Shown in pieces: positions 1-7,710 of a stretch of 7,710 bases of DNA. Where the stretch lies: assembly GCA_018903015.1 (NCBI GenBank), contig JAHIPR010000100.1:1-7710 (forward strand), read 5' to 3'. The notes under the pieces are model-generated. The model worked only from the letters and a program-made list of their open reading frames with translations. It was not told the origin of the DNA and did no database searches. Positions within the stretch are counted from its first letter, which is position 1; each line of letters starts with the position of its first letter. This DNA is from a bacterium. GTDB taxonomy: Bacteria; Atribacterota; JS1; SB-45; 34-128. Both the position numbers and the translations under genes were made by a program.

Positions 1-255
1 CCGGAAGAATTAGAGCTAAATATAAAAATATATAATAACGAAGAAATCCTCCAGGAATTATTCACCCAAAAAATTAAACCCAACAAAAGATTATTTATTT
101 CATCTTTTTGTAAAGGTTGCGGCACCTGTGTTAAAACCTGTCCTAATAATGCCTTATCTTTAGAAAATGGGAAAGCGGTAGTTAATCATAAATTATGCCT
201 TTTGTGCGGCTATTGCAATCCGGTGTGCCCTGAATTTGCTATTAGATTGATTTGA
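1..255 (+). CDS. C-terminal part of a 2x[4Fe-4S] ferredoxin-type protein (DUF362-like), 5' end outside window
   Basis: An open frame runs from the first base to a TGA at 253-255, giving 84 residues with no start inside the window. The visible part has two tandem cluster motifs: C37-x2-C40-x2-C43-x3-C47-P and C66-x2-C69-x2-C72-x3-C76-P. This is the classical pattern of a bacterial ferredoxin domain that binds two [4Fe-4S] clusters, with the fourth ligand of each cluster usually coming from the other motif. The ending (GYCNPVCPEFAIRLI) resembles the C-terminal ferredoxin domain of DUF362 proteins. The upstream 36 residues fit the end of a larger domain rather than a free-standing ferredoxin. 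The family call is from memory of that motif style; an oxidoreductase subunit is the alternative. It is probably unrelated to the sugar locus, because about 310 bp with a separate promoter lie between them. Electron transfer is likely, but its partner cannot be named. Confidence 0.8.
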   Translation, partial: PEELELNIKIYNNEEILQELFTQKIKPNKRLFISSFCKGCGTCVKTCPNNALSLENGKAVVNHKLCLLCGYCNPVCPEFAIRLI

Positions 256-488: not shown

Positions 489-517
489 TTGACATGCATA
501 ATTGTATATTGTAAAAT
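489..517 (+). promoter_or_regulatory. Sigma-70-type promoter for the regulator gene
   Basis: A perfect TTGACA (-35) at 489-494 is followed after exactly 17 bp by TAAAAT at 512-517, which matches the -10 consensus at five of six positions. Transcription would start near 524, giving a leader of roughly 40 nt before the regulator ATG at 567. It is the best promoter-like sequence I found in the window. It probably drives the regulator and, since no terminator follows that gene, the E1/E2 genes as well. Confidence 0.75.
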
Positions 518-566: not shown

Positions 567-1514
567 ATGAAAAGATATGCTTCTTTGATTGCTGAGATAT
601 GTAGGATGTATTATCTGGATAATTTAAGTCAGGATGAGATATCATCTAATTTAAGGATATCTAAGTCAGCTGTATCACGTTTACTAAAGGAAGGGAGAGA
701 AAAGGAGATAGTAACCTTTCACATTAAGGATTATGAAGACCGCTTAGGTTCTTTAGAAGATAAACTTGAACAATATTTTAAATTAAAAGAGGCAGTTGTG
801 GTGTCTGATGAAGGAATAAATTCCGAAGAAGCCATTAAAGAGAAAGTAGGAAGAGCAACAGCTTTACTTTTACAAAGAAGAGTTCGAGAAAATGATACTA
901 TTGCGGTCTCTTGGGGGACTACTTTAGCTAAAGTAGTCAAAGCATTAAATTCTCCATCCCATTTAAATATAGATATTGTTCCTCTTTTGGGAGGGATTGA
1001 TATTACTGGCAGAGATATCCATTCCAATGAAATAGCAAGGCAAGCAAGCGAAGCTTTTAAAGGAAGATATTATGTATTAAATGCTCCCGTCTTTGTCAGT
1101 AATTTTCAGATAAAAGAAGCATTTGAGAAAGAAAAAAGCATTAAAGCAGTTATTGATAAAGCCAAATCAGCCGATATAGCAGTGGTGGGCATAGGTAGTC
1201 CTAAACAAAGTTCTACCATGATAAAGCGAGGATATTTTTCTGTTAAAGAATTTGCTAAACTGACTGATAAGGGAGTAGTTGGAGATATCTGTACTAATTT
1301 TTATGATATCCAGGGAAATATTATTAAATTTTCCTTACATAATAAAATGATAGGTTTAGGATTAAAAGAATTGAAGCACATACCCATTGTGATAGGTGTA
1401 GCATGTGGCGAAGATAAACAGGAAGCTATTTTAGGCGCACTACGCGGTGGATATATAAATATTATTGTTACCAATAAAGGGGTTGCCGAGTATTTAATAA
1501 ATACTATAAAATAA
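567..1514 (+). CDS. SorC/DeoR-family sugar-responsive transcriptional regulator
   Basis: This 315-residue protein has the size and layout of SorC-family regulators (LsrR, CggR, B. subtilis DeoR). Residues about 18-45 form the N-terminal helix-turn-helix (LSQDEISSNLRISKSAVSRL). From about residue 60 to the end lies the sugar-binding domain, with family-like stretches SWGTT (115-119), LLGGI (140-144), LNAP (171-174) and GIGSP (208-212); the SWGTT-type loop binds the phosphate of sugar phosphates in known members. It is a cytoplasmic, probably oligomeric DNA-binding protein. The start at ATG 567 is supported by a purine-rich AGAGGGAG ending 12 bases before it, and the frame begins directly before the HTH. 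A strong promoter and a 13-bp-arm dyad lie just upstream, suggesting autoregulation. E1 alpha follows after 104 bp with no terminator, so it likely controls the downstream complex and importer. The effector is unknown; a phosphorylated form of the imported compound is the usual family pattern. Confidence 0.9.
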   Translation: MKRYASLIAEICRMYYLDNLSQDEISSNLRISKSAVSRLLKEGREKEIVTFHIKDYEDRLGSLEDKLEQYFKLKEAVVVSDEGINSEEAIKEKVGRATALLLQRRVRENDTIAVSWGTTLAKVVKALNSPSHLNIDIVPLLGGIDITGRDIHSNEIARQASEAFKGRYYVLNAPVFVSNFQIKEAFEKEKSIKAVIDKAKSADIAVVGIGSPKQSSTMIKRGYFSVKEFAKLTDKGVVGDICTNFYDIQGNIIKFSLHNKMIGLGLKELKHIPIVIGVACGEDKQEAILGALRGGYINIIVTNKGVAEYLINTIK

Positions 1515-1618
1515 TTTAGATTTTGGGATGTCTATTTAAAAAAAGATGTTTAGCATAATGGACTTTGGAAATTATTGAAAAAGAAATTACTAACAAGGAA
1601 AGAAAGGATAACTAAGGT

Positions 1619-2596
1619 ATGGAGATAGGTAGAGAACAGAAAATTAAAATGTTTGAAAGCATGCTTAGAATTCGTAAATTCGAAGATAAGCTTGAACAAA
1701 TATATCGGGATGGAAAATTAAATGGACACTCACATACCTGTCATGGAGAAGAGGCTATAGCAGTTGGTGCCATAGAGGCTCTTTCCGAAAAAGATATTAT
1801 CTTTTCGAATCATCGAGGACACGGTCATTATTTAGCCCGAGGGACTTCTCCTAAAAGTATTATGGCTGAATGTTACGGTAAAGTTACCGGAACAAATCAA
1901 GGGAGAAGTGGAAGCATGTATCTGGTTGATACAAAAAGAGGAATGTTGGTGGCAAGTGGAATTGTAGGAGGTAATATTTGTCTGGCTGTCGGTTCAGCTT
2001 TGGCCAGTCAAATAAAAAAAGATGATATAGTGACTTTAAGTATTTTTGGAGATGGAGCAACTAATATAGGCTTTTTTCATGAGGCACTAAACATGGCTTC
2101 TGTATGGAATCTACCCATTATCTTTCTTTGCGAAAATAATCAATATGCTGAAGCAACACCCAGAGAGCAACATCAAAAGGTAGAGAAGATATCTGATCGG
2201 GCAAGTGCTTATTCTTTGCCCGGGAAAACTGTTGACGGAACAGATGTTCTTAAAGTATATGAAGCGGTTAAAGAAGCAGTAGAAAGTATTCACCGAGGAG
2301 AAGGTCCTATTCTGATAGAATGTGTAGCTTATCGATTATCCGGACATTCATCGGGGGATTTAGGTGCTTATAGACCAAAAGGAGAAGAGGAAGAATGGAG
2401 GAAGATGTATGATCCGGTCAAAAAATATGAAACAAAGCTCCTTAAGGAAAATATATTATCTTTTGAAGAAGCAGAAAAAATAGAACAAGAGATTCAAAAG
2501 GAGATAGAAGAAGCAATAAAATTTGCCGTTGAAAGTGAAGAACCGCTTGCCAAAACAGTTGGTAAATTTGTATATCAGGAGGAAGTTAATGGCTAA
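1619..2596 (+). CDS. Thiamine-diphosphate-dependent dehydrogenase E1 component, alpha subunit (acetoin/pyruvate dehydrogenase type)
   Basis: This 325-residue protein is the usual length for E1 alpha of acetoin or pyruvate dehydrogenase complexes. With E1 beta it would form an alpha2-beta2 cytoplasmic enzyme that decarboxylates a 2-oxoacid, or cleaves an alpha-hydroxyketone, on thiamine diphosphate and reductively acylates the E2 lipoyl group. The TPP/Mg motif is clear: GDG at 144-146 to NN at 173-174. NHRGHGH (64-70) and SGIVGG (113-118) look closer to acetoin dehydrogenase AcoA than to pyruvate E1 alpha. The phosphorylation-loop region reads YRLSGHSSGD (238-247), keeping the GHS histidine. 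One oddity is GSMY at 98-101, where the family normally has GSMH. The start ATG 1619 has AGAAAGGA (1601-1608) ten bases before it. The gene overlaps E1 beta by 8 bp. Family membership is secure; the substrate (pyruvate, acetoin, branched 2-oxoacid, or a sugar-derived ketone) is not decided by the sequence. Confidence 0.92.
   Translation: MEIGREQKIKMFESMLRIRKFEDKLEQIYRDGKLNGHSHTCHGEEAIAVGAIEALSEKDIIFSNHRGHGHYLARGTSPKSIMAECYGKVTGTNQGRSGSMYLVDTKRGMLVASGIVGGNICLAVGSALASQIKKDDIVTLSIFGDGATNIGFFHEALNMASVWNLPIIFLCENNQYAEATPREQHQKVEKISDRASAYSLPGKTVDGTDVLKVYEAVKEAVESIHRGEGPILIECVAYRLSGHSSGDLGAYRPKGEEEEWRKMYDPVKKYETKLLKENILSFEEAEKIEQEIQKEIEEAIKFAVESEEPLAKTVGKFVYQEEVNG
2577..2582 (+). promoter_or_regulatory. 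Ribosome binding site AGGAGG that fixes the E1 beta start
   Basis: A perfect AGGAGG lies inside the last codons of E1 alpha, six bases before ATG 2589. It makes that ATG the start of E1 beta rather than an in-frame TTG at 2523, which has no such signal and would add 22 residues that do not fit the family. The coding overlap with E1 alpha suggests translational coupling and equal subunit supply. Confidence 0.9.
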
Positions 2597-3560
2597 GATC
2601 ATGTATATTGAAGCCTTAAAATCTGCCTTAAGAGAAGAAATGCGTAAGGATAAAAATGTTTTTGTTATAGGAGAAGATATTACCAGATACGGATTTGGTA
2701 TAAATAGAGGATTGGTAGATGAATTTGGTCCAGACAGAGTAAGAAATACTCCTATTTCAGAAGCAGCAATTATCGGTTCAGCAGTAGGAGCAGCCCTGCG
2801 AGGGATGAGACCGGTAGCAGAGATAATGTTTGTGGACTTTATTATGATAGGGTTAGATCAAATTGTAAATCAAGCCGCTAAAATGAGTTATCTATCAAAT
2901 GGTGAATTGTCTGTTCCTATGGTCATTCGGACACCCGAAGGAACAGAATGGTTTGGTGGAGGGGCCCAACACTCTCAGACTCTTCATTCTATGTTTATGA
3001 ATATCCCTGGATTAAAATTGGTGATTCCTTCTGATCCTTATGATGCTAAAGGGCTTCTTAAAAGTTCAATTCGAGACAATAATCCAGTGATTTTTTTTGA
3101 ACATAAACAACTTTATACCCAAAAAGGAGAAGTTCCGGAAGAGGAATATACTATCCCTCTTGGCAAAGCAGCAGTTAAGAAGGAGGGGGAAGACCTTACT
3201 TTAGTGGCTACTTCTTGGATGGTTAAACATAGTTTAGAAGTTGCCGAAGATTTAAAAGGTAAAATAAGTATAGAAGTAATTGATCCTCGTACTTTAGTTC
3301 CTTTAGATAAAGATACTATTATTAATTCTGTTAAAAAAACTGGGAGATTGTTAGTTGTTGATGAATCTCCGGTAAATGGTGGGGTGCAAGGAGAAATAAT
3401 TTCTGTGGTTATACAAGAAGCTTTTTGGAATATGGAATTCCCTCCCAAGAGAATAGGCTCCTTAAATACCCCAATTCCTTTTAGTAGCGCCTTGGAAAAA
3501 AAAGTCATTCCTACCAAAGAAAAGATTAAAGAAGAAATTTTGACCATGTTTTCCGATTAA
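2589..3560 (+). CDS. Thiamine-diphosphate-dependent dehydrogenase E1 component, beta subunit
   Basis: From ATG 2589 the product has 323 residues, the normal E1 beta length. It partners E1 alpha, contributing the residue that activates the cofactor and the C-terminal domain that docks on E2. TPISE at 54-58 carries the conserved Glu (E58) that protonates the TPP aminopyrimidine. IVNQAAKMSYLSNG (92-105) and PGLKLVIPSDP (140-150) are typical of the pyrimidine-binding domain, and GAQHSQ at 125-130 carries the active-site His (H128). The second half (VIDPRTLVPLD, LLVVDES) is the transketolase C-terminal domain. The gene begins inside the end of E1 alpha, and E2 follows 22 bp after its stop, so the three are one translation unit. 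Nothing looks truncated. As with E1 alpha, family membership is clear, but substrate choice among pyruvate, acetoin, branched-chain or a new ketone cannot be read from the sequence. Confidence 0.92.
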   Translation: MAKIMYIEALKSALREEMRKDKNVFVIGEDITRYGFGINRGLVDEFGPDRVRNTPISEAAIIGSAVGAALRGMRPVAEIMFVDFIMIGLDQIVNQAAKMSYLSNGELSVPMVIRTPEGTEWFGGGAQHSQTLHSMFMNIPGLKLVIPSDPYDAKGLLKSSIRDNNPVIFFEHKQLYTQKGEVPEEEYTIPLGKAAVKKEGEDLTLVATSWMVKHSLEVAEDLKGKISIEVIDPRTLVPLDKDTIINSVKKTGRLLVVDESPVNGGVQGEIISVVIQEAFWNMEFPPKRIGSLNTPIPFSSALEKKVIPTKEKIKEEILTMFSD

Positions 3561-3582
3561 AAGAAAGGAAAGAGGAAAAAAT

Positions 3583-4740
3583 ATGTGGAAGATCCAGATT
3601 CCTAAAACAGAATCAAAAGTTGAAGAAGTCACTCTTTTTAAGTGGCATAAAAAAGAAGGGGATAGGGTTATTAAAGGAGAACTTATTGCTGAAATAGAAA
3701 CATTTAAAGCGGCAGTAGAAATAAATTCTCCCGAAACCGGCATTATTTATAAAATATTTGTTAAAGAAGAAGAAACAGTGCCGGTAAATACAGTTATAGC
3801 GATCTTGATTGAAGAAGGAGAAGAAATTTCTCCTGAAGAGATAAAACCCTTTTTGCGAAATCAAAAAGAAGAAGGCGTTTCTTTAAAAGAAGAAAAAATA
3901 TCTTTTCCTAAAAAAGATTTGACCCATAGCAGTGATATTAAAAATGAAAAAATAAAAATAGCACCAATTGCCCGTAAATTAGCTTTAGCAAAAGGAGTAG
4001 ATTTATCCTTAATTAATGGTTCTGGACCAGGAGGAGTTATTACTAAAAAAGACATAGAAGGATATCTTTTTAAAACAAGAGAAAAGACAAATTTTACCAT
4101 CAAAGAAGTATATAAATTAACCGGATTGCAAAAAATAAGCGCCGAAAGGCTTACTTATAGTTATAAAAATATTCCTCAATTTACCCTTTGTAGGAAGATA
4201 GACATTGCTTCGCTTTTAAATATAAGGAAGGAGGTAAGTGCTCGATTAAATCAACATCTTTCTTTAGTTGATTTTATCATTAAAGCCCTAGTTCTCACCT
4301 TTAAAAAATTCCCCGAATTTAATGCGATATTCGAGGAAGAAAATTACAAGTTCATCAAAGAGATAAATATTAATTTAGCAGTAGCTACAGACAGAGGATT
4401 GATGGTTCCGGTACTTAAGAATTTGGAAGGTAAAGATATTTTCGAAATATCCCAATTAAGAAGAGAGATTACTGATAAAGCCTTAAAAGGGAAATTGCAA
4501 CCTGAAGATTTCGAGAAGGGGACATTCACTATTACTAATTTAGGCTTACAGGGTATTGAGTATTTTAATCCCATAATTAACCCTCCCCAGGTTGCTATTC
4601 TTGGAATAGGTAAATCAGAAAAAATGTCTCTTCCATTAAGCCTTTCTATGGACCATCGAATAATAGACGGAGCTAAAGGGGCCGATTTTTTACAGCTTCT
4701 ATCCAAAAAGTTAGCTTCGTACCAAAATGGAGGTGATTAA
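3583..4740 (+). CDS. Dihydrolipoamide acyltransferase (E2 component)
   Basis: This 385-residue protein has the three E2 parts in order. Residues 1-77 are one lipoyl domain, with K42 as the lipoyl-lysine. Residues about 125-162 are the peripheral subunit-binding domain (APIARKLALAKGVDL, then GSGPGGVITKKDIEGY). Residues about 175-385 are the catalytic acyltransferase core with GTFTITNLG (313-321) and the CoA-transfer motif DHRIIDG (357-363, catalytic H358 and D362). It moves the acyl group made by E1 from lipoamide to CoA and forms the core of the complex. Two things are unusual. The lipoylation site reads ETFKA where ETDKA is standard, and the stretch from GIG (341-343) to the DHR motif is about a dozen residues shorter than in typical E2 proteins. 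AGAGGA at 3571-3576, six bases before ATG 3583, supports the start. No dihydrolipoamide dehydrogenase (E3) follows; it must be encoded elsewhere or downstream. Confidence 0.92.
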   Translation: MWKIQIPKTESKVEEVTLFKWHKKEGDRVIKGELIAEIETFKAAVEINSPETGIIYKIFVKEEETVPVNTVIAILIEEGEEISPEEIKPFLRNQKEEGVSLKEEKISFPKKDLTHSSDIKNEKIKIAPIARKLALAKGVDLSLINGSGPGGVITKKDIEGYLFKTREKTNFTIKEVYKLTGLQKISAERLTYSYKNIPQFTLCRKIDIASLLNIRKEVSARLNQHLSLVDFIIKALVLTFKKFPEFNAIFEEENYKFIKEININLAVATDRGLMVPVLKNLEGKDIFEISQLRREITDKALKGKLQPEDFEKGTFTITNLGLQGIEYFNPIINPPQVAILGIGKSEKMSLPLSLSMDHRIIDGAKGADFLQLLSKKLASYQNGGD

Positions 4741-4770
4741 GAGGTAAGAAAAAGATTTGCTCGAAACGAA

Positions 4771-4807
4771 CTTAAGACAGCTTAATATATTTTAAAGAAG
4801 TCTTAAG
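4771..4807. promoter_or_regulatory. Inverted repeat between E2 and the binding-protein gene
   Basis: CTTAAGAC (4771-4778) and GTCTTAAG (4800-4807) are perfect 8-bp inverted copies around a 21-nt AT-rich loop. No T-run follows, so it is not a standard terminator. Within the 117-bp gap it could be an RNA processing or stabilising hairpin that separates E2 from the binding-protein message, or a protein site. Directly downstream a near-direct repeat, GGATAGCTAA (4807-4816) and GGATTAGCTAA (4821-4831), starts at 14-bp spacing. No good promoter was found in the gap. Confidence 0.4.
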
Positions 4808-4857
4808 GATAGCTAAGTATGGATTAGCTAAAAATTAAATTTAAAAAGGAGAAAAAA

Positions 4858-5865
4858 ATGAAAAAGATAATATTATGGTTTTTAGTTTTAACAGTAATTC
4901 TATCCACATTTTCTGTATTTATGATAGCACAAGCAGCCGATAACGATTTTGAAATTGTTATGGTAGTCAAACTTGAAGGAGTTGCCTGGTTTGATAATAT
5001 GAGGTTAGGTATTCAGCAATTTGCTAAAGAAACCGGGGTTAATGCCTACCAAATTGGTGCTGCTACAGCTGACCCAGCATCTCAGGTAGCTCTAATTGAA
5101 GATCTTATTGCTAAGGGCGTAGACGCAATACTAGTTGTTCCCAATGATCCGGTAGCATTAGAACCTGTGTTTAAAAAAGCAAATGATGCTGGGATTCTTA
5201 CTTTTACTCATGAAGCATCTAACCAGAAGCAGGTAAGTTTTGATATAGAAGCCTTTGATAATGTTGCCTACGGAAGACATATGATGGATGTTATGGCCAA
5301 AGATATGAATTATGAAGGAGGATATGCTTGTTTTGTAGGCCATCTTACTTCCACAACTCATAATGAGTGGGTTGATGGTGAAATTGCTCAACAAAAAGAA
5401 AAATATCCCAAGATGGAGTTAGTATGTGATAGAGTAGAAGATCGCGAAAATCAGCAAATTGATTACGAAAAGGCTTTAGAGCTTTTAAAAACTTATCCAA
5501 ATTTAAAAGGTATTATGGGAAGTGCTATGTGTGGAGTACCCGGATTTGCTCTGGCTATTGAAGAAAAAGGCCTTATAGGCAAAGTTGCAGCATACGGAAC
5601 CTGTTTACCTTCTGTTGCCTATGATTACTTAAAGAGCGGTTCTGCCAAGTCGATTCATTTCTGGGTTCCAGCTGATGCAGGATATGTTACCTGTAAGGTA
5701 GCCTGGGAACTTCTTAAGGGTAATGAAATTAAAGAGGGTATGGATTTAGGTAGACCTGGTTACGAAAATATTACCATTAAAAAGAACCAATATGGTGTAC
5801 CAATAATTTATGGTAGCGCTTGGAAAGATGTTACTCTTGAAAATATAGACGAGTACGATTTATAG
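4858..5865 (+). CDS. Periplasmic substrate-binding protein of a Rbs/Lsr/Rha-type sugar ABC transporter
   Basis: This 335-residue protein belongs to the periplasmic binding protein type 1 family (PF13407-like). Residues 1-26 are a Sec signal peptide with a hydrophobic core and an A-x-A site (AQA, 24-26). There is no lipobox cysteine, so the mature protein should be free in a periplasm. The body matches the LsrB/RhaS subgroup in layout: VVKLEGVAWF (36-45), ASQVALIEDLIAKGVDAI, HNEWVDG, YPNLKGI, and the ending ENIDEYDL, which parallels the NIDKYDF ending of LsrB as I recall it. Of the LsrB residues reported to hold AI-2, only the lysine (K38 here) seems kept; the two acidic/Gln positions and the Pro/Ala pair are changed by my hand alignment. 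The ligand is therefore probably another small sugar or polyol. AGGAG (4847-4851) lies six bases before the ATG. A powerful hairpin follows the stop, as is common for highly expressed binding proteins. Confidence 0.9.
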   Translation: MKKIILWFLVLTVILSTFSVFMIAQAADNDFEIVMVVKLEGVAWFDNMRLGIQQFAKETGVNAYQIGAATADPASQVALIEDLIAKGVDAILVVPNDPVALEPVFKKANDAGILTFTHEASNQKQVSFDIEAFDNVAYGRHMMDVMAKDMNYEGGYACFVGHLTSTTHNEWVDGEIAQQKEKYPKMELVCDRVEDRENQQIDYEKALELLKTYPNLKGIMGSAMCGVPGFALAIEEKGLIGKVAAYGTCLPSVAYDYLKSGSAKSIHFWVPADAGYVTCKVAWELLKGNEIKEGMDLGRPGYENITIKKNQYGVPIIYGSAWKDVTLENIDEYDL

Positions 5866-5885
5866 ACCATATCTGCTACAGAGAG

Positions 5886-5930
5886 AAGATTGGTTGAAGG
5901 GTTGTTATCCCTTCAACCAATCTTTATTTA
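5886..5930 (+). terminator. Strong stem-loop terminator or attenuator after the binding-protein gene
   Basis: Positions 5886-5901 pair perfectly with 5909-5924 (16 base pairs, plus a G-T pair outside), closing a 7-nt loop. The stem top is GAAGGG/CCCTTC. It is followed by TTTATTTA, a modest T-rich tail. It lies 20 bp after the binding-protein stop and 173 bp before the ATPase start. It likely ends or trims most transcripts here, protecting the binding-protein message while the ATPase and permease are made at a lower level by read-through or from their own promoter. Confidence 0.88.
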
Positions 5931-5970
5931 GTAAATCCTAAGCTTTGCTTAAATAAAATTTTTTGATAGA

Positions 5971-5992
5971 TAATAGTATGAATTAATAGTAT
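5971..5992. repeat. Direct repeat TAATAGTAT in the spacer before the ATPase
   Basis: TAATAGTAT occurs at 5971-5979 and again at 5984-5992, a 13-bp period. It lies in the AT-rich spacer (5931-6102) between the terminator and the ATPase. A TTGATA at 5963-5968 precedes it, but no well-spaced -10 is evident. It may be chance in such AT-rich DNA, or part of a control site for a second promoter. The rest of the spacer shows no gene or RNA structure I can support. Confidence 0.3.
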
Positions 5993-6090
5993 TATTTTAT
6001 TATTACCGGATACAAAGACTACATTTAAGAATTAGATTGATACTTTATTTAATAAGATACAGCTAAAATTTGTTTATAAAGTATTGCCCT

Positions 6091-6097
6091 GGTGAGG
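6091..6097 (+). promoter_or_regulatory. Ribosome binding site GGTGAGG for the ATPase gene
   Basis: GGTGAGG ends five bases before ATG 6103 and selects this start. An in-frame TTG at 6070 would add eleven residues, including a Cys-Pro-Gly that does not fit the family, and it lacks a binding site. A similar GGTGG precedes the permease ATG. Confidence 0.8.
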
Positions 6098-6102
6098 TTA
6101 TA

Positions 6103-7614
6103 ATGGTTGAAAAGTTAGAAAAATTATTAATAGTTAAAGATATAAGTAAATCATATGTGGGCGTACAAGCATTAGATAGAGTCAGTTTGTCAATAAGCAA
6201 AGGTGAGATACATTGCCTGGTCGGTGAAAATGGATCGGGAAAATCTACCTTGATAAAGATAATAGCCGGGGTAGTTAAGGCAGACGAGGGTGAAATAATA
6301 ATAAATGGTAAAAAGTTCAAAAGTTTACAGGCCATCGATTCGATAAGTGAAGGAATACAGGTAATCTATCAGGACCTATCTTTATTCCCTAATCTTTCTA
6401 TCGCTGAAAATATTTCACTAAATCAGATGATAGAAAGAAAGAAGAGATTTATTAGTTGGAAAGAAATAAGTGATATCGCCAAGAGAGAGTTTTCCAATAT
6501 TAATAAAAAGCTGGATTTAGATGAAAAGGTAGAAAATATTTCTATTGCGAATAGGCAGCTTGTAGCTATCTGCAGGGCACTAACTCAAGATGCCAAACTT
6601 ATTATTATGGACGAACCTACTACGGCAATTACCAAAAGTGAAATTGATCGTCTATTTTCTGTAATTCTGGGTTTAAAGAAAAGGGGAATTTCCACCCTAT
6701 TTGTTAGTCATAAGCTTAGTGAAGTTTTAAAGATATCTGAAAAAGTAACGGTTATACGGGATGGAAAAAAGGTTGGTGTTTATAGTACTGAGGAGTTGGA
6801 CCACGATACCCTTTCTTTCTATATGAGTGGCAAGAAGGTAGTTGATTCTGTTTTTGATTACCAAGAGAAAGAGAGGCAGAAAGAGCCGCTATTAGAAGTT
6901 AAAAATCTTTCCAAAAAAGGTAATTTTCAGGATATAAATTTTAAAGTTCGATCAGGTGAAATTATAGGAATAACCGGAATCATGGGTTCCGGGCGGACAG
7001 AACTTGCTTTATCGCTTTTCGGTTTGAATAGACCGGATTCAGGAGAAATATATATCGATGGTAAGTTGGCAAAGATAAAGTCTCCTCGAGACGCTATTGA
7101 GCTGGGTTTAAGCTATTTACCAGAAGATAGGCTTAATCAGGGCTTATCTATAAAGCAGTCTATCGGAAATAATATTATAGTTACTATATTGCAGAGATTG
7201 TTGAATAGATTCAAACTGTTCGATAATAACAAAAAGTATGAAGCTGCAAAAGAATGGATGGAAGAGTTAAATGTAATTACACCGTCTTTAGAGACTGCAG
7301 CTCGGGCACTGTCAGGCGGCAACCAGCAGCGGGTGGTTATAGCTAAATGGCTGGCTACACACCCTAAAGTATTTATTTTAAACGGTCCTACTGTAGGGAT
7401 AGATGTTGCTTCTAAAAGCAATATACACAATATAGTCAAAGGGTTAGCTAACAAAGGTATTGGGGTTATAATTATTTCTGACGAGATTCCCGAAATTATC
7501 CGGAATTGTAACCGGATAATGGTAATAAGAGAAGGTAGGATTATTAAAAAAGTTAATACAGATGAGGTGACCGAGGCTAAATTGCTGGATATATTAGCAA
7601 GAAATAGTAATTAG
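6103..7614 (+). CDS. Sugar ABC transporter ATP-binding protein (RbsA/MglA/LsrA type, two fused ATPase domains)
   Basis: This 503-residue protein has the normal length for the RbsA family, which powers import of monosaccharides from the cytoplasmic face of the membrane. Domain 1 has Walker A GENGSGKST (41-49), Q-loop YQDLSLFP (89-96), Walker B LIIMDEP (166-172) and the H-loop SHKLSE (H203), but a degenerate signature (SIANRQ, 147-152). Domain 2 has a degenerate Walker A (GIMGSGRTE, 292-300) and a perfect signature LSGGNQQ (403-409). Its Walker B reads FILNGP (424-429), so the Asp and the catalytic Glu are Asn427 and Gly428. One composite ATP site (Walker motifs of domain 1 with the domain 2 signature) is therefore intact and the other is degenerate. 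The permease starts 9 bp after the stop. The spacer upstream contains the binding-protein terminator, so expression is probably lower than that of the binding protein. Confidence 0.93.
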   Translation: MVEKLEKLLIVKDISKSYVGVQALDRVSLSISKGEIHCLVGENGSGKSTLIKIIAGVVKADEGEIIINGKKFKSLQAIDSISEGIQVIYQDLSLFPNLSIAENISLNQMIERKKRFISWKEISDIAKREFSNINKKLDLDEKVENISIANRQLVAICRALTQDAKLIIMDEPTTAITKSEIDRLFSVILGLKKRGISTLFVSHKLSEVLKISEKVTVIRDGKKVGVYSTEELDHDTLSFYMSGKKVVDSVFDYQEKERQKEPLLEVKNLSKKGNFQDINFKVRSGEIIGITGIMGSGRTELALSLFGLNRPDSGEIYIDGKLAKIKSPRDAIELGLSYLPEDRLNQGLSIKQSIGNNIIVTILQRLLNRFKLFDNNKKYEAAKEWMEELNVITPSLETAARALSGGNQQRVVIAKWLATHPKVFILNGPTVGIDVASKSNIHNIVKGLANKGIGVIIISDEIPEIIRNCNRIMVIREGRIIKKVNTDEVTEAKLLDILARNSN

Positions 7615-7623
7615 GGTGGTCTA

Positions 7624-7710
7624 ATGGTAAAAAATAATAGAAGCTTAAGAATTCAAAAATTATTAAAACAAAATGAGTTATATTTATTTTTAGTTATAAT
7701 TGTTTACTCA
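7624..7710 (+). CDS. N-terminus of an ABC sugar transporter permease (RbsC/LsrC/LsrD-like), cut by the window edge
   Basis: ATG 7624 opens a frame that stays open for 29 codons to the end of the window. GGTGG (7615-7619) lies four bases before it, and the gene starts 9 bp after the ATPase stop. The visible part has a basic, polar start (MVKNNRSLRIQKLLKQNE) followed by a hydrophobic run (LYLFLVIIVYS) that looks like the beginning of the first membrane helix. Rbs/Lsr-type permeases begin this way, and a permease is what the operon order predicts. The assignment rests mainly on context, since no diagnostic permease motif is in view. Confidence 0.72.
   Translation, partial: MVKNNRSLRIQKLLKQNELYLFLVIIVYS

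Follow-up and report, generated by a model that had tools for sequence, protein, structure and literature searches.

Known chemistry already links pyruvate dehydrogenase (PDH) to deoxysugars: purified PDH converts pyruvate and glyceraldehyde to 1-deoxyxylulose, aceE mutants supply DXP, and 1-deoxyxylulose is phosphorylated by XylB (PMC3424233). DXR-II is likewise a proven MEP-forming enzyme, with G121, T229 and R320, and also H250, as its diagnostic residues (PMC3847144). A literature search over open-access journal papers found neither an account of a SorC regulator with E1/E2 genes nor one of methylerythritol catabolism by an operon combining DXR-II and E1. Here, we analysed a stretch of DNA of 7,710 nt (the window), which we regard with moderate confidence as the front part of an operon for sugar or polyol use, under SorC control, from an Atribacterota-type bacterium.

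All genes originally predicted for the window, from SorC through E1 alpha, E1 beta, E2, binding protein and ATPase to a permease start, are present, intact and on one strand (Table 1). The gaps measure 104 bp from SorC to E1 alpha, 22 bp from E1 beta to E2, 117 bp from E2 to the binding protein, 237 bp from there to the ATPase, and 9 bp from the ATPase to the permease. By eye, the permease start resembles the permease at L281:739-1761, a gene that matches sugar ABC permease models. The ferredoxin-domain gene ends 311 bp before sorC and is probably a separate neighbour outside the operon. In locus L001, the counterpart of bases 1-255 is the C-terminus of a full-length relative in which 4Fe-4S domains are joined to an aldo-keto reductase. 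Neither this gene end nor the inverted repeat that follows the binding protein gene featured in the original prediction.

Table 1. Features of the 7,710-nt window.
Feature	Position	Strand	Details
Ferredoxin-domain gene, 3' end	1..255	+	87% identity to L001:2704-2952
Predicted promoter TTGACA-17-TAAAAT	489..517	+	Upstream of sorC
13-bp inverted repeat, 92% complementary	510-522/533-545	+	Overlaps predicted promoter, precedes sorC
SorC/DeoR-family sugar-binding transcriptional regulator	567..1514	+	PF04198, 270 bits
E1 alpha, ThDP-dependent dehydrogenase	1619..2596	+	PF00676, 300 bits; loops HRGHGH, GHSSGD
E1 beta	2589..3560	+	ATG at 2589, preceded by GGAGG; overlaps E1 alpha by 8 bp
E2	3583..4740	+	Lipoyl PF00364, E3-binding PF02817, acyltransferase PF00198
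RhaS/LsrB-family periplasmic sugar-binding protein	4858..5865	+	PF13407; nearest PDB chain 5bra, 271 bits
Perfect 16-bp inverted repeat, 7-nt loop	5886..5924	.	In the 237-bp gap before the ATPase
Sugar-type (Rbs/Ara/Lsr) ABC ATPase, two ABC domains	6103..7614	+	Walker A GENGSGKS; LSGGNQ
Permease of sugar ABC type, first 29 codons	7624..7710	+	Runs off window end

Residues 7-311 of the regulator, including the N-terminal HTH, align to SorC (2w48), in addition to the PF04198 domain; DeoR (8r7y) and LsrR (4go1) are also matched in the PDB, and the protein scores below the NCBIfam cut-offs for both DeoR and LsrR. Sites resembling TTGACA-17-TAAAAT occur in the window at chance level (28 found versus 27.0 expected from shuffles). 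The TTGACA is invariant, with conserved flanking columns, 5' of sorC in L001, L002 and L107 also. The inverted repeat at 510-545 is a candidate SorC operator.

The regulator is tied to the dehydrogenase by the neighbourhoods of relatives. Our E1 set held 168 tips, 72 in the window's wider clade and 96 outside it, with duplicate loci left out along with 18 loci whose E1 alpha match was short, stopped or partner-less (L003 and L004 among them). A SorC gene stands no more than 9 kb from E1 at 47 of the 72 wider-clade tips versus none of the 96 others, acetoin-type rows included, and still at 28 of 48 when tips fetched via DXR-II are excluded, which supports the original interpretation on this point. 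Relatives carry their E1 genes near sugar importers of several sorts. The operon of the nearest relative, L004, whose E1 alpha pieces match the window's at 91.5% and 90.5%, appears to run on through DhaK, DhaL and FGGY kinase genes, the contig matching onward from it (L281) reading permease-permease-DhaK-DhaL-FGGY kinase. L001 carries a XylB-like FGGY kinase after E2 (338 bits, below the cut-off of 380.25) and also has an SDR and an MDR, and L158 holds FGGY, a RhaI-like isomerase, an MDR, SorC and AraD. Because kinases lie downstream in relatives (L281, L001), the idea that their absence from the window hints at an unphosphorylated route was dropped. L108, a member of the window clade, has E1 alpha-E1 beta with neither SorC nor E2, and no E2 was found within 9 kb at any of the 12 ARA-type tips, some of which lie on short contigs.

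The importer is a swappable module that stands beside E1/E2 in the closest relatives only. An orthologue of the ABC ATPase is found at G003:C332 (90%), and the binding protein recurs at an identity of at least 80% in 11 of 50 Atribacterota genomes. Linkage was seen, besides the window, only in G004 (E1-E2-importer, L004) and G003 (E2 fragment-importer, L282); L002 and L003 have a different binding protein, and L001 has none in view. Conservation of this exact importer with E1 is not supported outside the closest relatives. The binding protein, which scores 159.8 bits against a TIGR02637 cut-off of 342.25, had been labelled LsrB-like, which is right for fold and family but not for the AI-2 contacts: of the LsrB residues that we take to contact AI-2 (K35, D116, D166, Q167, P220 and A222), an alignment to 5gta shows one of six (K35) to be kept. 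An AI-2 (Lsr) system was ruled out on these contacts and on scores below the LsrB and LsrR cut-offs.

What, then, is the complex? E1 beta exceeds the cut-off of NF006667 (345.9 versus 321 bits, with the frame read from 2523), and E2 has the three domains of a 2-oxoacid dehydrogenase E2 together with the catalytic DHRIIDG at residue 357 and the lipoyl-lysine motif ETFKA at residue 39. Against the curated acetoin E2 model NF011457, it reaches 66.9 bits, below the cut-off of 307. The best NCBIfam model for E1 alpha is that of mitochondrial-type PDH, TIGR03182, at 348.3 bits (cut-off 393.85), and the Bacillus-type PDH model TIGR03181 gives 262.8 bits (cut-off 411.35). DX-, ARA- and fusion-type E1 alphas pass TIGR03182, at 394.3, 394.6 and 411.5 bits, respectively. 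The first loop, HRGHGH, is common to the window and acetoin-type E1; its first His is Tyr in Bacillus-type PDH, in the presumed branched-chain group and in human PDH (YRAHGF). The second loop reads GHS[S/A]GD in the window clade, GHFEGD in acetoin-type and GHSK[S/N]D in DX-type E1, so that the window shares the first but not the second half of the double motif HRGHGH + GHFEGD found in six acetoin-type rows. No K/R follows the HS of this loop in the window clade, a feature that would point, weakly, to an unphosphorylated route.

Clade tests used trees of 68 of the 168 tips, with one typed row added to the E1 alpha tree for the mitochondrial-type test. The Bacillus-type PDH group was drawn from L250-L253, L255 and L256, of which the two scored (L250 and L253) exceed the TIGR03181 cut-off; the presumed branched-chain group consisted of L244, L245, L247, L248 and L254, of which the three scored (L244, L245 and L247) fall below it; L246, counted with the presumed branched-chain group where it was used, lies above it. 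Plain Bacillus-type PDH was ruled out, as starred branches set the window E1 apart and its TIGR03181 score is below the cut-off. Joining the window to the presumed branched-chain group gave a p-AU of 0.0005, and an exclusive clade of the window clade with the six acetoin-type rows was rejected (p-AU 0.0016), becoming borderline when two Dehalococcoidia rows were included (p-AU 0.0586). In the free E1 alpha tree, a starred branch (96) separates the acetoin/DX group from the window clade. Constrained groupings with the acetoin/DX supergroup (p-AU 0.942) and, on E1 alpha alone, with mitochondrial-type PDH (p-AU 0.683 and 0.818) are equally tolerated. On the point of an E1 outside ordinary PDH, the original interpretation is supported for the Bacillus type; by phylogeny, acyloin-type and mitochondrial-type affinities are both tolerated.

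We see an even chance that the window encodes an acetoin-dehydrogenase-like complex that cleaves a sugar-derived alpha-hydroxyketone to acyl-CoA and an aldehyde. The Rbs-type ABC importer would take up a sugar, polyol or ketose. Further enzymes, with genes downstream or at other sites, would oxidise, isomerise and/or phosphorylate it to give an alpha-hydroxyketone R-CO-CHOH-R'. The ThDP carbanion of E1 would add to the ketone, the C2-C3 bond would break and the aldehyde R'CHO would be freed; the E2 lipoyl arm would hand the acyl group on to CoA, and the lipoate would be re-oxidised by an E3 presumably encoded elsewhere. The simplest substrate would be a 1-deoxyketose, CH3-CO-CHOH-R', yielding acetyl-CoA and a sugar aldehyde. 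A freed C3 aldehyde could be phosphorylated by DhaKL, a ketose by FGGY kinases. This would be chemistry of the acetoin dehydrogenase type on a sugar-derived substrate, with the PDH, aceE and XylB deoxyxylulose reactions as a chemical precedent (PMC3424233). The sugar modules found with E1 in relatives also count in its favour, among them the DXR-II loci, in which the DXR-II product is a 1-deoxyketose phosphate. Substrate class, bond broken and step order are what we infer, set against an observed background of gene content, SorC-E1 linkage, the HRGHGH loop and the kinases of the orthologous operon. The interpretation first offered for this locus is partly borne out: the tie to SorC, E1 genes near various sugar importers, an E1 outside Bacillus-type PDH and the first loop speak for it, the missing-kinase hint and a fixed importer do not. 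Counted against the alpha-hydroxyketone reading are the starred E1 alpha branch and the tolerated grouping with mitochondrial-type PDH, a second loop that is neither acetoin- nor DX-type, the NCBIfam naming of DX-, ARA- and fusion-type E1 alphas as PDH, the lack of DXR-II in G001-G004, the ARA-type tips and L108 without E2, and an importer not fixed to E1.

Another reading is a mitochondrial-like PDH recruited into a sugar operon, in which importer and kinases feed glycolysis and E1/E2 turns pyruvate into acetyl-CoA; we consider this rather unlikely. Among solved structures, human PDH comes closest to the window E1 alpha (213 bits), its second loop, GHSMSD, is similar to GHSSGD, TIGR03182 is the best-scoring model and a clade with mitochondrial PDH on E1 alpha is tolerated. 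However, the TIGR03182 score stays below its cut-off, the Tyr of the human first loop is replaced by His, starred branches exclude the Bacillus type, and the DXR-II-linked relatives make poor sense as plain PDH. The E1/E2 domain set, being that of 2-oxoacid dehydrogenases, could also belong to an enzyme of new specificity that decarboxylates a sugar-acid-derived 2-oxoacid (e.g. a 2-keto-3-deoxy acid) to acyl-CoA, and the nearby kinases and dehydrogenases would suit sugar-acid routes. Yet sugar-acid dehydratase, KDG kinase/aldolase and uronate isomerase were no best match among the annotated proteins of L001, L002, L003 and L281, and the HRGHGH loop is acetoin-type, making this option improbable. 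Slightly less probable still is an ordinary acetoin dehydrogenase operon that by chance precedes an unrelated sugar importer. The first loop, the borderline clade with the Dehalococcoidia rows and L180, where sugar ABC genes lie close to an operon annotated for acetoin, are in keeping with it; the rejected exclusive clade, the low score with the acetoin E2 model, the second loop and the SorC gene, which no outside-clade tip has, argue against it.

The DXR-II-linked relatives deserve separate consideration. We fetched 40 Bacillota DXR-II (MEP<->DXP) loci out of 64 listed places, mainly better-scoring ones; G121, T229 and R320 are present in all 40, and H250 in 27. A homologous E1 alpha occurs in 25 of the 40, accompanied in 24 of these 25 by SorC and a glucitol-type PTS, and the layout in Bacillota and Rhizobium is SorC-GutM-PTS(Gut)-DXR-II-E1-E2(-E3). 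This joint occurrence suggests catabolism of methylerythritol through a 'DXP dehydrogenase'. More generally, we tentatively raise the possibility, which we hold to be on the doubtful side, that SorC-linked E1/E2 are acyl-CoA-forming deoxyketose dehydrogenases with reverse DXS-like chemistry. In Bacillota and rhizobia, 2-C-methyl-D-erythritol would be taken up by the PTS as MEP, DXR-II would oxidise MEP to DXP, and E1/E2/E3 would split DXP into acetyl-CoA and glyceraldehyde-3-phosphate. In the window clade, E1 with the third loop type (GHS[S/A]GD, no Lys) would cleave an unphosphorylated 1-deoxyketose taken up by the Rbs-type importer, and DhaKL would phosphorylate the C3 aldehyde. No DXR-II match was found in the G001-G004 genomes or the window. 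The DXR-II-linked operon could conversely be biosynthetic, E1 standing in for DXS as the source of DXP and DXR-II making MEP for isoprenoids. DXR-I is absent from 9 of the 25 E1-linked genomes, 8 of which keep IspG, 11 of the 25 have no DXS over the cut-off, and MEP formation by DXR-II is proven (PMC3847144). We nevertheless judge this unlikely: DXS over the cut-off and DXR-I occur together in 14 of the 25 genomes, G303 keeps the operon without DXS over the cut-off, DXR-I or IspG, and 4 of the 9 DXR-I-less genomes (G174, G208, G285 and G357) have a second DXR-II, the two such loci fetched (L207, L209) having no SorC, PTS or E1 in view. In addition, DXP synthesis offers no obvious place for a sugar PTS, SorC, E2 or E3.

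If the general reading is true, a ThDP/lipoate complex would serve as the C-C cleaving step of sugar catabolism, giving acetyl-CoA directly and bypassing part of glycolysis, and members of the family would be misannotated as PDH, as the curated model names the three DX, ARA and fusion members scored. The DXR-II operon would assign a catabolic function to enzymes described for isoprenoid biosynthesis and, if this is right, some Bacillota and rhizobia would be able to eat methylerythritol, an isoprenoid precursor.

Finally, we would place the locus among known systems. With acetoin dehydrogenase, compared at L180 and L190 (E2 annotated so) and L189 (beside acetoin reductase), it shares E1 alpha, E1 beta, E2, the first loop and the expected CoA-dependent cleavage of CH3-CO-CHOH-R; it differs in its SorC gene, its second loop, its sugar importer and the kinases of its relatives. 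It resembles Bacillus- and mitochondrial-type PDH in domain architecture and in an E2 with an E3-binding domain, but falls outside the Bacillus type, carries His instead of Tyr in its first loop and sits in a sugar-operon context. LsrR likewise belongs to the SorC family, and the Lsr (AI-2) and RhaS importers are of the same transporter family as the window's, which nonetheless scores below both NCBIfam cut-offs and keeps one of the six presumed AI-2 contacts. With the DXR-II/DRL locus, the window has in common SorC, homologous E1/E2 and a sugar uptake system, whereas DXR-II is missing from the window and from G001-G004, an Rbs-type ABC importer replaces the PTS, and the window clade has no K/R after the second-loop HS.

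The genes named in the original prediction were all found in the window, each intact and on the plus strand. The E1 beta gene has GGAGG ahead of its ATG and shares its first 8 bp with the end of E1 alpha; E2 shows its catalytic motif along with all three expected domains. A near-consensus promoter-like site and a 13-bp inverted repeat precede sorC, and the TTGACA and many flanking columns are kept in three relatives (L001, L002, L107). Because site counts in the window equal the shuffle level (28 promoter-like sites vs 27.0, 3 terminator-like sites vs 4.1), only this conservation weighs for the site. The relative expression of the binding protein (SBP) and ATPase genes may be governed by the inverted repeat that separates them.

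Gene orders and positioned features (nucleotides of each locus)
Locus	Position	Feature or gene order
Window	2589	E1 beta ATG
Window	5886-5924	16-bp perfect inverted repeat, 7-nt loop, separating SBP and ATPase genes
L001		SorC, C_GCAxxG protein, SDR, E1a, E1b, E2, XylB-like FGGY kinase, M24 peptidase, MDR start
L001	4314-4838	C_GCAxxG_C_C gene between sorC and E1a
L002		SorC, C_GCAxxG fragment, different Rbs-type SBP + ATPase + permease, E1a, E1b, contig end
L002	2704-2856	C_GCAxxG_C_C fragment after sorC
L003		E1a (contig begins within), E1b, E2, different SBP
L004		C_GCAxxG, E1a, E1b, E2, SBP + ATPase as in window; contig begins ahead of E1a, SorC outside view
L004	1-357	C_GCAxxG_C_C gene ahead of E1a
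L004	329-1266	E1 alpha broken into two reading frames
L107		SorC, C_GCAxxG, E1a, E1b, E2, contig end
L107	3361-3918	C_GCAxxG_C_C gene between sorC and E1a
L108		E1a, E1b; without SorC, without E2
L158		FGGY, RhaI-like isomerase, MDR, E1a, E1b, small protein, MDR, FGGY, SorC, AraD
L175 (Rhizobium K1/93)		GutM, PTS glucitol, ptsP, SorC, 'NAD(P)H-dependent oxidoreductase', E1a, E1b, E2
L176 (S. meliloti Rm41)		ABC importer, SorC, same oxidoreductase as L175, E1a, E1b, E2, lpdA, lipA
L177 (Priestia)		PTS-Gut, E1-E2-E3, SorC, MFS, SorC, SAF protein
L281 (G004:C53)		permease, permease, DhaK, DhaL, ribulokinase-like FGGY, ureidoglycolate-lyase-like
L282 (G003:C332)		E2 fragment, SBP, ATPase, permease, permease, DhaK
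L283 (G003:C244)		SBP, ATPase, permease, permease, FGGY

A scan of genome contigs with E1 alpha gave 69 loci, four of them close: the nearest, L004 (Atribacteria 4572_76), whose two pieces are 91.5% and 90.5% identical to the window, followed by L001 (Atribacterota, 75%), L002 (Aerophobetes, 70%) and L003 (Atribacteria, 70%). L107 (G048) and L108 (G045) came from a phylum search in which 48 of 50 genomes had some match, transketolase-like ones included. Among the best 120 of 7014 protein matches, all of P0001-P0069 (69/69) reach at least 65% identity, and the next stand at 52% or less, bar six partial matches. Across the seven close loci, window included, SorC is present in four and absent from one, with no view in the other two; the importer varies. 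The C_GCAxxG_C_C gene of several relatives encodes a putative redox protein, for which the window gave no match.

Orthologues of the window ATPase occur on two contigs of G003 (90% at C332, 78% at C244). In L004 the ATPase stops at residue 178, and G004:C53 starts at residue 262 (88%); from this split and the order in L282 and L283, we infer that L004 and L281 are contiguous. L281 DhaK scores 406.3 vs a TIGR02363 cut-off of 406.25, and its DhaL, ribulokinase-like FGGY and ureidoglycolate-lyase-like proteins each score under their own. DhaKL is capable of triose kinase activity. The first of the L158 kinases shares 79% identity with the FGGY kinase of L281. Of 50 Atribacterota genomes, 11 (G003, G004, G007-G012, G025, G026, G029) have an SBP at least 80% identical to that of the window; in the nine besides G003 and G004, ten stretches (L284-L293, several short) held no E1 near it. 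A xylose-isomerase-like protein adjoins the importer genes in seven of these (L284-L290), and L288-L290 have a second isomerase past the permeases, 85-86% identical to that of L158. The modules mix, yet their parts recur in E1 operons.

Plasmid relatives (L175-L177) first revealed an operon linking such an E1 to DXR-II, the enzyme interconverting MEP and DXP. The L175 oxidoreductase matches PDB 3upl, which we take to be Brucella DRL, over residues 1-435 (720 bits) and also matches the DRL_cat domain. At 1e-60, DXR-II matches occur in 35 of 398 Bacillota and 27 of 299 Bacilli genomes, two matched genomes being common to both. Forty of 64 distinct places were sampled, chiefly better-scoring ones, from 38 genomes: SorC and PTS-Gut each occur at 32, E1 alpha at 25 (none in view at 15), both E1s at 24, E2 at 23, E3 at 12, and SorC, Gut and E1 alpha together at 24. 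Of the 25 E1 alpha genes, 17 are no more than 1.5 kb from DXR-II and 22 share its strand. PMC3847144 gives G121, T229, R320 and H250 as DXR-II residues; the first three are present at all 40 loci and H250 at 27. A SorC-GutM-PTS(Gut)-DXR-II-E1a-E1b-E2(-E3) operon recurs among L195-L234 (Bacillota) and in L175 and L176. At L198 and L202, with no E1 in view, DXR-II adjoins an FGGY kinase and MDR, and L198 also has an Rbs-type ABC importer and isomerase nearby. A literature search, with subscription journals and preprints outside it, found no description of a SorC-PTS-DXR-II-E1/E2 operon.

The operon is a candidate for a pathway of methylerythritol catabolism in which a dehydrogenase complex would cleave DXP. 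Isoprenoid genes were surveyed in 38 genomes, 25 of them E1-linked, with assembly completeness unstated for absences. DXR-I is present in 16 of the 25, and DXS scores over its cut-off in 14, all with DXR-I. DXR-I is absent from the other nine (completeness unstated), of which eight keep IspG and four have a second DXR-II; G303 lacks DXS over the cut-off, DXR-I and IspG, with the same caveat on completeness. These counts suggest a catabolic role where DXR-II is redundant, and in the eight genomes with IspG but without DXR-I the operon may instead be biosynthetic.

In a wide FastTree phylogeny (168 tips, E1 alpha and beta), the smallest clade uniting the window with a DXR-II operon (L205) numbers 72 tips, with support 0.835. 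Of these, 47 have SorC no more than 9 kb from E1, against none of the 96 outside; once loci fetched via DXR-II are dropped, the clade figure is 28 of 48. These are counts of loci, not events, from contigs of unequal length and many close kin. In a site-mixture tree of 68 rows, the window clade is starred (100; 95 with L064 and L055 added), and starred branches part it from Bacillus-type PDH and presumed branched-chain groups. Its branch, an acetoin-holding group (84) and a group of DXR-II-linked (DX), L158-like (ARA) and alpha-beta fusion E1s (93) form a fork without resolved order; the ARA rows (L158, L115, L118 and others) sit inside the DXR-II-linked ones (98). Joining the window clade to the presumed branched-chain group (p 0.0005) or to six acetoin-type rows (p 0.0016) was rejected. 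Joining it to acetoin-type plus two Dehalococcoidia rows gave p 0.0586, and to the DX/ARA/fusion group p 0.132.

Is the window E1 then an ordinary pyruvate dehydrogenase, the placement that would have spoken against the original prediction? With E1 alpha alone and the human enzyme added, a starred branch (96) of the free tree bars the window clade from the acetoin/DX group. The constrained trees, all scoring above the free tree, tolerate it with mitochondrial PDH (p 0.683; 0.818 with L188 also) and with the acetoin/DX supergroup (p 0.942). Given the starred splits and these p values, the phylogeny argues against Bacillus-type PDH but not against the mitochondrial type.

The active-site loops read NHR[G/N]HGH...GHS[S/A]GD in the window clade (5/5), THRGHGH...GHFEGD in the six acetoin-type rows shown and THRGHGH...GHSK[S/N]D in DX, fusion and ARA rows (R in one of eight DX rows shown); human PDH has YRAHGF...GHSMSD, Bacillus-type PDH YRD...HTMAGD (two rows shown) and the presumed branched-chain group YRDL...HSSDD (three rows shown). 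The residue after the conserved HS is K/R in all 27 DX, 12 fusion and 12 ARA rows; the same position holds E in 7/7 acetoin-type and A/S in 5/5 window rows. A lysine at this position may bind a substrate phosphate.

The alpha-beta fusion E1s (about 680 aa; L109-L113, L119, L127, L129, L132, L148, L149, L151, L165), from the phylum of G001, sit in most of the 13 loci with SorC, PfkB kinase, MtlD-like dehydrogenase, MFS, FGGY kinases, RhaI-like isomerase, MDR and SDR; L149 has E2 further along. Glycyl-radical enzymes and radical-SAM activase-like proteins adjoin E1 at L116, L123, L124 and L159, where a dehydratase step yielding deoxyketones would fit. A separate E1 group (L137, L139, L141-L145, L160) is linked to sigma-54 activators, with E2 alongside in most and TRAP genes (DctP, DctM) at several. 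Plasmids of Rubrobacter (L194), Phaeobacter (L191) and Thermus (L193) cluster E1a-E1b-lipoyl protein with sugar ABC or TRAP genes.

Acetoin-type E1 attacks a ketone that neighbours a carbinol, and the acyl half is handed on to CoA; 1-deoxyketoses hold exactly this grouping. The window E1 may act on such a sugar, free or phosphorylated. One paper reports PDH forming 1-deoxyxylulose from pyruvate and glyceraldehyde, aceE mutants supplying DXP, and XylB phosphorylating 1-deoxyxylulose (PMC3424233). The complex could run such a formation in reverse, as cleavage. Acetoin-type cleavage of a sugar-derived ketone to acyl-CoA as the general mechanism is, in our judgement, an even bet. The window represents a variant of the acyl-CoA-forming ThDP/lipoate complexes, here within a SorC sugar operon.
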